This document shows, piece by piece, positions 11,362 through 15,441 of a DNA stretch of 64,000 nucleotides (position 1 is the stretch's first letter; the number at the start of each line of letters is the position of its first letter). Source of the stretch: Ceratodon purpureus (Eukaryota > Streptophyta > Bryopsida > Pseudoditrichales > Ditrichaceae); contig CM026424.1 in the NCBI GenBank assembly GCA_014871385.1, positions 20,365,321 to 20,429,320 on the forward strand, written 5' to 3'. The notes under the pieces were generated by a model, which worked only from the letters and a program-made list of their open reading frames with translations, did not search any database and was not told where the DNA came from. The translations under genes and the position numbers were made by a program.

Positions 11362-11432
11362 GTGGCTGTAGTTTAGTGGTGAGAATTCCACGTTGTGGCC
11401 GTGGAGACCTGGGCTCGAATCCCAGCAGCCAC
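11362..11432 (+). tRNA. tRNA-His (anticodon GTG)
   Basis: A complete cloverleaf can be read. The acceptor stem is GTGGCTG paired with CAGCCAC, the D arm is GTTTAGTGGTGAGAA, the anticodon stem-loop holds TTGTGGC with anticodon GTG, and the T arm is CTGGGCTCGAATCCCAG. There is no intron. A TTTT run eight bases after the end suits RNA polymerase III termination. The sequence agrees with the conserved plant cytosolic tRNA-His. It stands alone about 400 bp downstream of URI. Confidence 0.95.
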
Positions 11433-12017
11433 ATGACGTTTTGCTGATTTACCTTTTTACCTTTTTTAACCATATGCAGGCAATTTTGAAACTGTCCCCT
11501 CTGTTTCATGTGCTTTTTTACTCCGACGGCGATTGCCAATCTTCACATTCCAGAACGTGAGAGTCAAGTTTCGTACCCAATTAGTAAACCACACTAATTA
11601 AGACACTAATCCACCACTACATGACGTACACTACCACGAAAAGACACTACTCTTTTCCCAGTGAGCTGTAAACCTGTAAGCCTGTAATTATGAGAACGTC
11701 GTTCTCCCAAACCTGAGTGCCTTTCCGAAGCAAAACATTCCAAAACCGTTTACAGATTTACAGGTTTGCCCCAAAAAACCTTCCAAGATGAGGTTTCGAC
11801 CTGTAAATTACAGACTTACAAGCTCAAATACAGGCTTGGCCTGAACCGCAATTCACGTCTTTCTACATCTTTCCGATTACAGGTTTACGGTTCAGGCCTC
11901 ACTGGGGATGCACAAAATCAACGTAAAGCACAAGATATCCTGAAAACGAACAGAAATCTTGCTCAATTACAAGATTTCGCAGCGTCAGCACGAAGCCTCT
12001 GGAAGTGTCGTCCACGC

Positions 12018-12090
12018 TTCTAGAGCCTTCTCGGGCCTTCCAACCCGCCGCCGACTCGCTCCTCGCCTTCGTTTCGACGCGTCTATAAAA
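12018..12090 (+). promoter_or_regulatory. Heat-shock-element-like array and TATA box
   Basis: Three TTC blocks lie exactly 10 bp apart (12018-20, 12028-30, 12038-40) within TTCTAGAGCCTTC and its extension, the pattern of a gap-type heat shock element. A TATAAAA box follows at 12084-12090, about 45 bp after the array and 150 bp before the ATG at 12241. Spacing and order suit a heat-responsive RNA polymerase II promoter; the inducibility is inference. Confidence 0.5.
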
Positions 12091-12240: not shown

Positions 12241-12993
12241 ATGGCTACTTTTGTGGCAGAACAGCGCGCACTGGCTCCCTTGAAACATCGTAAGTGGTGG
12301 AACAAGGGTACGAAGGGAGTCGAGCAAAGGTACAGTAAGAGCACTGTCCAGGCGGCAGTGAAAGCGCAGGGATATCAGGGTTTAGTTCCATTACTTGGCT
12401 TGCATAAGCAGCAGAATCGTGTGACGACGAAGAGAAAGTTTAAGCCGAAGAGGAGAGTGCCGAGGACAGTGCCGAGAGCGCCGTTTAATGACAGCTCGTT
12501 TTTGATGCGCGTGCGGAGGTCCGGGGGGTTAGCGTCGCTCATCTCCCCCGCGCCTTCGTCGCCTAGTGTTTTTCAGTCTTCCGATCTTGATTTGGTTGCT
12601 TACCAGGATTTCTTGGATCATGAAGATTACGGTTATGGCTCTATGGCAGGGCTCATCCGCCTGCGCCGTCCTGAGGAGGAAAAAGGTGATAGTGACATTG
12701 TTGACAACAGCTTCGACGACGTGAACATGTGCGCCAGTTCGCTAGGGCAGAATTTGGAGCAGCGGGTGGACCGGTTCGAGATGATGGATCTTCCGAGGGA
12801 GGAGCTGGAAGCGTCGCAGCGGGTGGCGAGCCGGGATAGTCGTATAAGAGACTTGGAAGATGAGAATCTTGTTCTGAAAGATCGTTTGTTCTTGGTACAG
12901 CAAGAGGTGAACGAGCTTAGGGAAAGATTACGAGGTCAAAGCAGGAACTCGGTTGAGGAGAACGATTCTACGCAGTCTTGTCTTGAGAGTTAA
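12241..12993 (+). CDS. Basic, acidic and coiled-coil protein with HEXIM-like layout
   Basis: A single 250-residue frame with no intron. The ATG at 12241 is the first good start after the TATA box. The N-terminus is strongly basic: KHRKWW at residues 15-20 and a Lys/Arg cluster at 64-79 (KRKFKPKRRVPR). Then comes APFNDSSFLMR at 80-90, a middle region with GYGSMAGLIRLRR, an acidic patch at about 145-162, and a C-terminal coiled coil at about 196-232 (RIRDLEDENLVLKDRL). Animal HEXIM proteins, inhibitors of P-TEFb, have the same order: arginine-rich RNA-binding motif with KHRR, then APYNTTQFLM, then an acidic region, then a dimerising coiled coil containing LSRMEDENNRLR. I do not recognise a named plant gene; the HEXIM relation is a hypothesis from motif order. 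A second reading is an unrelated land-plant family of unknown function. Confidence 0.75.
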   Translation: MATFVAEQRALAPLKHRKWWNKGTKGVEQRYSKSTVQAAVKAQGYQGLVPLLGLHKQQNRVTTKRKFKPKRRVPRTVPRAPFNDSSFLMRVRRSGGLASLISPAPSSPSVFQSSDLDLVAYQDFLDHEDYGYGSMAGLIRLRRPEEEKGDSDIVDNSFDDVNMCASSLGQNLEQRVDRFEMMDLPREELEASQRVASRDSRIRDLEDENLVLKDRLFLVQQEVNELRERLRGQSRNSVEENDSTQSCLES

Positions 12994-13917
12994 GCTGATC
13001 GTAGAGTTGATCTTTTCTGTGCTTGGATCACTTGATCTTGGTTCACTTGATGTGTTCACTTGATCAGTGGTTTGCTTGTGCTGCCTTCTTGCAAAGCAGC
13101 TGGCGCTGAGGAACTCGCGGGGTGTACAAAGAGCTGATTCTTTCGCGAAAGAGCACCGAGGCTTGTGCTGTCCTGGTGTTCAACATCATGTAAGTCCGAG
13201 CTTCGAGAGTTCCTGAATTTTTGCTTTAGTTTAGTTCATAGTTTTCTAATTGAGGCCCACTTCACAGTGCCGGATGCAGTCGAGGGTTCGGAGGCTTGAG
13301 GATGAGCTCCTCGCTATGCAACCATGCCCTACCACTTCGTAGGAAGACGACAATCAAGCTTCTAGCAGTTTGAAGTAGGCCTTAGATATATGTTCTTTTT
13401 ATCGTAGATTTTAGTTCTTCTCCGTTAGAGAAGATGTGGTTGAAAGAGATATCTCATTCTGTTTTTTGTCGTACAGATGGTCTTCGATGATACCCTGTGT
13501 ACAATGCTCGGCCGCCACTGGTGAGATTGTCTGGTAAGCTTCACATTGGACACGCAGACACGCTCATCTGACACGTAAAGTATATAGTGTCCTGTGTATA
13601 GTGTGGAGAGAATTTCTTGTAGATATAATTGACGACCACAGATTTAGACCACCAGAGTATAGGAGTCCATTTAATTCCTGGAAGAAGACGAGCCTTTTAC
13701 CATGTACAGTACCCTTTCTTGAGACAAAGCAACAGATTGCTTATAACTCATGTATTTTATAATAACAGTTCAGTTTTACATTAACACCCCTTTGTTCAAT
13801 CAGTCTTTCTGTTGTAATTTGTTATGATACGTTAGTGAACTAGGTTCGCCTAACAAACCTGGCCTATCTTGCTTATTCCTACCCATAAAGTCCTAAAAAT
13901 TCACATCCCAATTCGTA
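12994..13917 (+). other. Downstream region of the HEXIM-like gene, probable spliced 3' UTR
   Basis: No further coding exon was supported. GTAAGT at 13190 and a CACAG acceptor ending at 13267 bound a 78-bp intron-like segment, so the 3' untranslated region may be spliced. A short frame after it ends at 13341 and looks incidental. Nothing else was seen up to 13,917. Confidence 0.35.
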
Positions 13918-14850: not shown

Positions 14851-15441
14851 TCATTCCATAACGACCGTCGCGCCTACTGACTTCAACTTCTCAATAATTT
14901 GCTCCGCTTCTTCTTTACTAACTCCATTCTTCAACACGATTGGCGCCTTCTCCACGAGCTCCTTGGCCTCCTTCAGCCCCAATGCCGTGAACGTCCGCAC
15001 TTCCTTGATAATCTTAATCTTGGAGGCGGCATCGAATTTCTCTAGCTTCACATCGAACGACGTCTTCTCGGGCTTCTTCTCCTCGGCAGCCGGCGCGGCG
15101 CCACCTCCAGGCATCCCCATTCCCGGCGGCATCATACCCATTGGCATCATTCCCATCCCAGCGGGCAACCCTAATTTCTTCTTCAACAAAGTTGAGAGAT
15201 CCACGACTTCGAGCAGCGACAGCGTTGAAATCTCATCGGCAATCCTCTGGATCTTCTCAGAAGGCGGCGTCCTGGCTTCTGAAGGATCATAGTCCGGCTC
15301 ACTGGCAGCGGCGCTGCCAAACAACCTCGAACCCTGGTAGCTTCCCCTTGTCGATTCATAATGGAGACCTAATGCGCGACGAGCCCCACTAAAGGATCGC
15401 ACTAACGAGGACCTCGCTGACGAGCTCCACAACCGACTCAT
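14851..15441 (-). CDS. Mitochondrial ribosomal protein bL12m (L7/L12)
   Basis: A single 196-residue frame. The first 45-50 residues are rich in Ser, Arg and Ala ([21 protein letters not shown]), typical of a mitochondrial presequence. The L7/L12 N-terminal dimerisation domain follows ([22 protein letters not shown]). A Gly/Met/Pro/Ala-rich hinge of about 30 residues comes next. The C-terminal factor-binding domain reads [38 protein letters not shown], then ends VGATVVME. L7/L12 forms the ribosomal stalk that recruits translation factors. The hinge, with repeated GM/PM blocks, is more methionine-rich than usual. AAACCCTAA at 15472-15480 just upstream is a telo-box, common in plant ribosomal-protein promoters. 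Plastid targeting is a less likely alternative. Confidence 0.93.

Follow-up and report, generated by a model that had tools for sequence, protein, structure and literature searches.

A moss protein family with a PYNT-like short motif and a C-terminal coiled coil, and the extent of its likeness to HEXIM

The gene, its paralogues and its surroundings

The window, which is the whole 64,000-nucleotide stretch of Ceratodon purpureus DNA that was analysed, contains a coding sequence at 12241-12993 (+) that reads as a single intact open frame of 250 codons. A TATAAA at 12084-12089 (+), 151 bases 5' of the ATG, is by its position the likely core promoter. A protein search of the source genome (362 Mb in 151 contigs) recovered three paralogues of the encoded 250-residue protein, hereafter the window protein. 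These are L002 on contig C1, L003 on C13 and L004 on C10, with 51, 46 and 36% identity to the window protein over the match, respectively. A second genome search with the L004 protein as query recovered the same four members. Neither search, with scores computed for the best candidates only, found a further member, and the next matches of the second search had E values of 0.23, 1.0 and 4.5.

Because dN is 0.43 against a dS of 1.26 between the window gene and L002, comparison of the sequences points to constraint on the protein, and the gene appears to be maintained. For the other five of the six paralogue pairs, dS was above 2.6 in two and not computable in three. Judged from its sequence, with one open frame, three paralogues and this dN/dS, 12241-12993 is a real gene with real motifs. 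No Pfam family reached its cut-off in any of the four proteins, and no relatives were confirmed in the viral and genome contig collections. We class the four proteins as a plant coiled-coil family that shares a conserved PYNT-like motif and has no Pfam model.

Several neighbouring features were observed in the window. A tRNA-His (GTG) gene lies at 11362-11433 (+), 0.8 kb 5' of the open frame. Downstream of the stop codon, inspection by eye of 13190-13342 found a candidate splice donor-acceptor pair, with GTAAGT at 13190 as the donor, followed by a 22-codon frame at 13274-13342 whose beginning, MQSRVRRLEDELLAM, resembles the coiled-coil start DSRIRDLEDENLVL; it is possibly an alternative last exon or a relic. 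On the opposite strand, 14851-15441 (-) carries an N-terminally extended reading frame that resembles ribosomal protein bL12 and by eye looks like a mitochondrial L7/L12 precursor.

Conserved motifs and predicted structure

The elements listed in the first-pass annotation of this DNA, namely KHRKWW, KPKRRVPR, APFNDSSFLMR, a mildly acidic stretch and DLEDENLVLKDRL, are all present in the 250-codon frame. Their order, basic region, AP[FY]N..S[FY]LMR, acidic stretch and coiled coil, is also kept in the three paralogues. In the four-paralogue alignment, [KH]RxW, AP[FY]N[DT]SS[FY]LMR, YGSMxGxIxL, RFE[MI] and the C-terminal coiled coil are found in every member. The full order in the family is [KH]RxW, a basic stretch, the AP[FY]N block, an SP/TP-rich linker, the YGSM block, an acidic linker, RFE[MI] and the coil; YGSMxGxIxL and RFE[MI] are two conserved motifs absent from the annotation's list.

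KHRKWW occupies residues 15-20 (12283-12300, +). The basic cluster KRKFKPKRRVPR at 12430-12465 (+) contains the region of KPKRRVPR (residues 68-75) and likely serves nuclear localisation or nucleic-acid contact. The N-terminal 79 residues of the window protein have a net charge of +18, and the charge ahead of the AP[FY]N motif ranges from +15 to +19 across the four paralogues. The PYNT-like short linear motif PRAPFNDSSFLMR at 12472-12510 (+), in which APFNDSSFLMR forms residues 80-90, shows the strongest conservation in the family, with 9 of 13 positions invariant. The annotation had named a lack of conservation of FNxxxFLM in relatives as grounds for giving up its reading; the motif is kept in the paralogues within this genome.

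The second conserved motif, DYGYGSMAGLIRLRR at 12625-12669 (+), includes the YGSMxGxIxL common to all four proteins and has 8 of 15 positions invariant; no HEXIM counterpart of this block was found. It is followed by a weakly acidic, unconserved linker at 12670-12759 (+), by RFEM at 12772-12783 (+), and by a long helix or coiled coil at 12796-12942 (+), residues 186-234. The invariant positions thus cluster in the two motifs and the coil (14 of 52 positions), with none in the 30 positions of the acidic linker.

The AlphaFold2 model of the window protein, built on the four-member alignment, has a mean pLDDT of 54.5, and 215 of its 250 residues fall below 70. Its sole structured elements are the 49-residue helix 186-234, in which residues 201-230 have a mean pLDDT of 91-96, and one 4-residue helix. 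The coiled coil for which the annotation had proposed structure prediction is modelled as a long helix, which also has coiled-coil matches and would be dimeric. The family profile on which these comparisons rest consists of four sequences from one genome. Seed-plant proteins that read RAPRNTTSF...GYGSMKGLIRL...RFEM...coiled coil would be the orthologues, with the same motif order and nearest to L004. These presumably carry Arg at the Tyr position of PYNT, which would argue against HEXIM function. A literature text search for these motif strings returned no paper.

Comparison with HEXIM and the 7SK context

The annotation had proposed that this is a plant protein with the layout of HEXIM. Pfam HEXIM (PF15313) gave no match at E <= 10 in any of the four proteins, in a search whose filters drop most matches above an E of about 0.1 and in which the HEXIM1 control scored 203.8 bits. 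A search of the genome with HEXIM1 residues 142-359 found none of the four members at E <= 10 and gave only two weak matches elsewhere (E 2.35 and 6.92). Among the papers listed in the literature searches, none describes a plant HEXIM, the nearest being PMC11482795. An excerpt of that paper assigns HEXIM to animals, choanoflagellates and ichthyosporeans, with Capsaspora as a further possible case, and describes HEXIM-like sequences beyond those lineages as patchy, many of them without functionally important residues. It also reports that NELF-B and -C/D were lost in land plants.

The family profile was compared by hhalign with a profile of HEXIM1 and HEXIM2, with the Pfam HEXIM match of HEXIM1 and the presence of its chains in the PDB library as controls. 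The best match covered 12 columns, PRAPFNDSSFLM on PVAPYNTTQFLM, with a score of 30.4, a probability of 14% and an E value of 0.0019 for one comparison. None of 2100 column shuffles equalled this score (0/600, maximum 29.1, and 0/1500, maximum 25.9), and the reversed alignment control scored 16.0. Because no shuffle reaches the score, the likeness of the motif to HEXIM exceeds a composition effect at the sequence level, and to this extent the resemblance noted in the annotation was upheld. The profile-to-profile search it had proposed aligned the 12-residue motif, but at a probability of only 14%. With an E of 0.0019, about 47 such matches are expected over the 24736 Pfam families, and the motif would not be outstanding database-wide; the annotation's comparison was in effect a search of that breadth.

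When single proteins were compared with HEXIM, the motif scored 31.0 for L004, 25.3 for L002 and 20.9 for the window protein, whereas the best match of L003 was in the coil (17.3). The motif reads PFNDSSF in the window protein, PYNDSSF in L002, PFNDSSY in L003 and PYNTSSY in L004, compared with PYNTTQF in HEXIM. PYNT is therefore intact in L004 only, and the other three carry Asp for Thr. APYNTSSYLM of L004 shares 7 of 10 residues with APYNTTQFLM of HEXIM1, and the window protein shares 6 of 10. Directly following LM, every paralogue has Arg and HEXIM1 has Asp. The PYNT motif of HEXIM1, in the wide sense residues 202-210, binds and inactivates Cdk9 according to an excerpt of PMC12901311, and an excerpt of PMC6245832 states that a HEXIM1-Tat chimera with PNND in place of PYNT loses its inhibitory effect. 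Since PNND, as named, changes two residues, it does not prove that Asp by itself inactivates. The paralogue most expected to act like HEXIM, if one does, is L004, because it alone reads PYNT. A genome search for the DNA form of AP[FY]N...[FY]LM gave six sites (one for the backwards control), and four of these sites are the members of this family. The other two, in L007 (1270-1593, -) and L008, are near-identical 30-mers reading APYNALPFLM, and L007 adjoins a reverse-transcriptase-like open frame as judged by eye.

The remaining elements were compared one by one. Aligned without gaps to HEXIM1 148-200, the N-terminal block was equalled by 394 of 1000 shuffles for the window protein, 504 for L002, 585 for L003 and 96 for L004. 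A KKRxW-x7-W-x5-F pattern in L004 that by eye resembles HEXIM1 was dropped, as 96 of 1000 shuffled versions of that N-terminus were equal. HEXIM has a two-part arginine-rich motif, KKKHRRR-PS-KKKRHWK, ahead of PYNT (from an excerpt of PMC10083321), and no such PS-split motif was seen in the four paralogues. The HEXIM1 linker ahead of PYNT contains a helix, as described in part of PMC12901311; the AlphaFold2 model has none ahead of the PYNT-like motif, in a region of low confidence. The most acidic 30 residues have net charges of -8, -7, -6 and -7 in the window protein and L002 to L004, compared with -13 in HEXIM1. The spacing agreement claimed by the annotation did not hold for most distances. 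From [KH]RxW to APxN there are 64, 64, 74 and 49 residues in the window protein, L002, L003 and L004, and in HEXIM1 there are 49 from KHRR and 40 from KRHW, which L004 alone comes near. The distance between APxN and the E-[DNE]-ENL motif is 126, 141, 133 and 137 residues, versus 101 to EDEN in HEXIM1.

In HEXIM1 the coiled coil that binds cyclin T lies within residues 254-359. For the coil, the comparison with the HEXIM1/2 coil gave 19.5, which none of 300 heptad-keeping shuffles reached, narrowly (maximum 19.3). With the HEXIM1 coil alone the score was 21.3, but four unrelated coils gave 24.8-29.7, a panel biased in their favour because they were drawn from the top PDB hits. The best matches of the PDB profile search were unrelated coiled coils, an apparently designed coil (E 0.0067) and HY5 (E 0.0072). 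The HEXIM1 chains 2gd7 and 3s9g, which are present in the PDB library, were not among the 17 profile matches at E <= 10. When the coil of the window protein was set against that of HEXIM1 in all 115 ungapped registers, the one that pairs LEDEN with MEDEN ranked 46th, and the MEDENNRLR-type correspondence drawn in the annotation was rejected as out of register. Of its wider HEXIM reading, what stood was the PYNT-like motif and, for the coil, the narrow shuffle result; the basic N-terminus performed at shuffle level and Pfam HEXIM did not match.

We also looked for the RNA side of such a system. Rfam 7SK (RF00100) gave no match at E <= 10 in the genome, with 19 of 6721 candidates scored and with control genomes that have no known 7SK. 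Divergent 7SK RNAs can escape the Rfam model. A 7SK-like RNA would need a Bin3/MePCE-type enzyme for capping, and a full-length domain of this type is encoded on contig C8 (E 9.6e-41). The genome also has three partial matches above the cut-off of RRM_3 (xRRM type). Both families have other RNAs as clients too.

The moss U6 promoter element is roughly WCCCATANNGNTTG, which fits 7 of the 12 U6 loci read (L018-L029) among 24 U6 matches in the genome; the angiosperm element is RTCCCACATCG. Followed by TATA, WCCCATANNGNTTG has 428 genome matches, overlaps counted, versus 6 for the control. The genome search with the moss snRNA promoter for Pol III RNA genes kept 30 loci as 7SK candidates. They comprise MITE-like repeats as judged by eye (group C), a longer repeat whose copies align across all 400 bases (group B), several single sequences, and a family of structured RNAs (group A). 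At Rfam gathering scores nothing was found in 25 of the 30, and the remaining five overlap others. Group A is not defensible as 7SK, as it has hundreds of copies and as two of the four copies read for this feature, L060 and L061, have no GATC pair in the RNA body.

Copies of group A measure about 120 nt, look like a structured RNA and share a conserved AAGCCYTGGTGGCTYGGTG. The repeat is found genome-wide, with loci L034 (-), L060, L061, L063 (+) and L064-L093; at least L034, L060, L061 and L063 have an snRNA-type promoter, and no Rfam 15 match was found there at gathering scores. Its 19-mer with at most one mismatch has 639 genome matches versus 0 for the backwards control, often in tandem about 216 bases apart and also at recurring larger distances, which suggests a mobile element. 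Compensatory changes were seen in 10 of 39 pairs in four sequences, and in 12 of 39 pairs on 29 distinct rows that were fitted to the four-sequence structure and include the loci of those four model sequences. For the 29-row set, 0 or 1 of 500 shuffles was as good in each of five measures.

Interpretation and known systems

The reading that we favour, at a probability of about 0.6, is that the four proteins are nuclear, mostly disordered, coiled-coil adaptors that dock partners through short motifs. The basic N-terminus would, from its charge, direct nuclear import and may also contact nucleic acid. The predicted C-terminal helix of 49 residues would form a coiled-coil dimer, and AP[FY]N[DT]SS[FY]LMR and YGSMxGxIxL, given their conservation, would dock partner proteins, a CDK being a possible partner of the former. 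The dimer could thereby hold partners with two hands, and phosphorylation in the SP/TP-rich linker may tune this adaptor role. That the moss protein is nuclear, dimerises and has such partners is what we infer from these features. A layout of basic region, motif, acidic region and coiled coil is common to many disordered nuclear proteins, and the likeness to HEXIM amounts to one short motif plus this widely shared layout. The moss protein is probably not a HEXIM, as most of the supporting argument fails against controls. Against the adaptor reading, the shuffle results of the motif and the coil possibly reflect some HEXIM-specific signal.

It is very unlikely that the proteins are divergent homologues from an ancient eukaryotic HEXIM family, in which a dimer holds CDKC-cyclin T inactive with the PYNT-like motif in the kinase site and RNA binding at the basic region releases or arms it. 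The 0/2100 and 0/300 shuffle results, the score of L004 by itself, the shared element order with the 49-residue distance of L004 and the Bin3/MePCE-type domain would fit such descent, as would the patchy occurrence of HEXIM-like sequences beyond animals and the lineages closest to them (PMC11482795, in part). They are set against the 14% probability with its 47 expected matches, the failure of Pfam HEXIM and of the HEXIM1 search to find any member, the Asp for Thr in three of four proteins in view of the PNND result (PMC6245832, excerpt), the lack of an Rfam 7SK match, and the reported loss of NELF-B and -C/D.

Resemblance without shared descent has two forms. Short linear motifs often arise by convergence, and AP[FY]N.SS[FY]LM may bind a transcriptional CDK (CDKC) or a kinase related to it much as HEXIM binds Cdk9. 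Its standing as the most conserved block, like the Cdk9-binding HEXIM1 202-210 (excerpt of PMC12901311), speaks for this, but Thr is replaced in three of four members and Arg follows LM where HEXIM1 has Asp, and we consider it doubtful. Equally, we find it rather improbable that the motif serves a wholly different partner and that its PYNT likeness is a coincidence from scanning many motifs. The two genome sites outside the family show that the pattern can occur elsewhere, one of them beside the reverse-transcriptase-like frame, whereas the shuffles and the 7 and 6 of 10 identities with HEXIM1 argue against coincidence. A bolder proposal, which we regard as quite unlikely, is that CDKC-cyclin T of land plants is inhibited by a dimer of HEXIM type, by descent or convergence. 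L004 would have retained the inhibitory motif, whose Asp versions in L002, L003 and the window gene would act as phosphomimetic or decoy forms, in an elongation checkpoint without NELF.

If the family were HEXIM, the sequestration of P-TEFb would either long predate animals or have two separate origins, and an elongation checkpoint would have gone unrecognised in plants. On the present findings, the proposed adaptor family has four members, no Pfam model and, as putative docking sites, two short motifs under strong conservation; the motif of L004 is the one worth interest for kinase binding.

Among known systems, HEXIM1/2, the P-TEFb inhibitor of the 7SK RNP, has in the same order as the moss family a basic region, an AP(Y/F)N-type motif, an acidic stretch and a C-terminal coiled coil. 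Unlike HEXIM1/2, the moss family has no Pfam HEXIM match and no two-part PS-split arginine-rich motif, and most of its spacings differ. Its coil is closer by profile to unrelated coils, and it has YGSMxGxIxL and RFE[MI], for which HEXIM counterparts were not found. The leucine zipper of HY5 (2oqq) aligns with the moss coil over 37 residues without gaps at an hhalign probability of 89%. No bZIP basic region was seen adjoining the moss coil, and the match reflects coiled-coil character rather than family membership.
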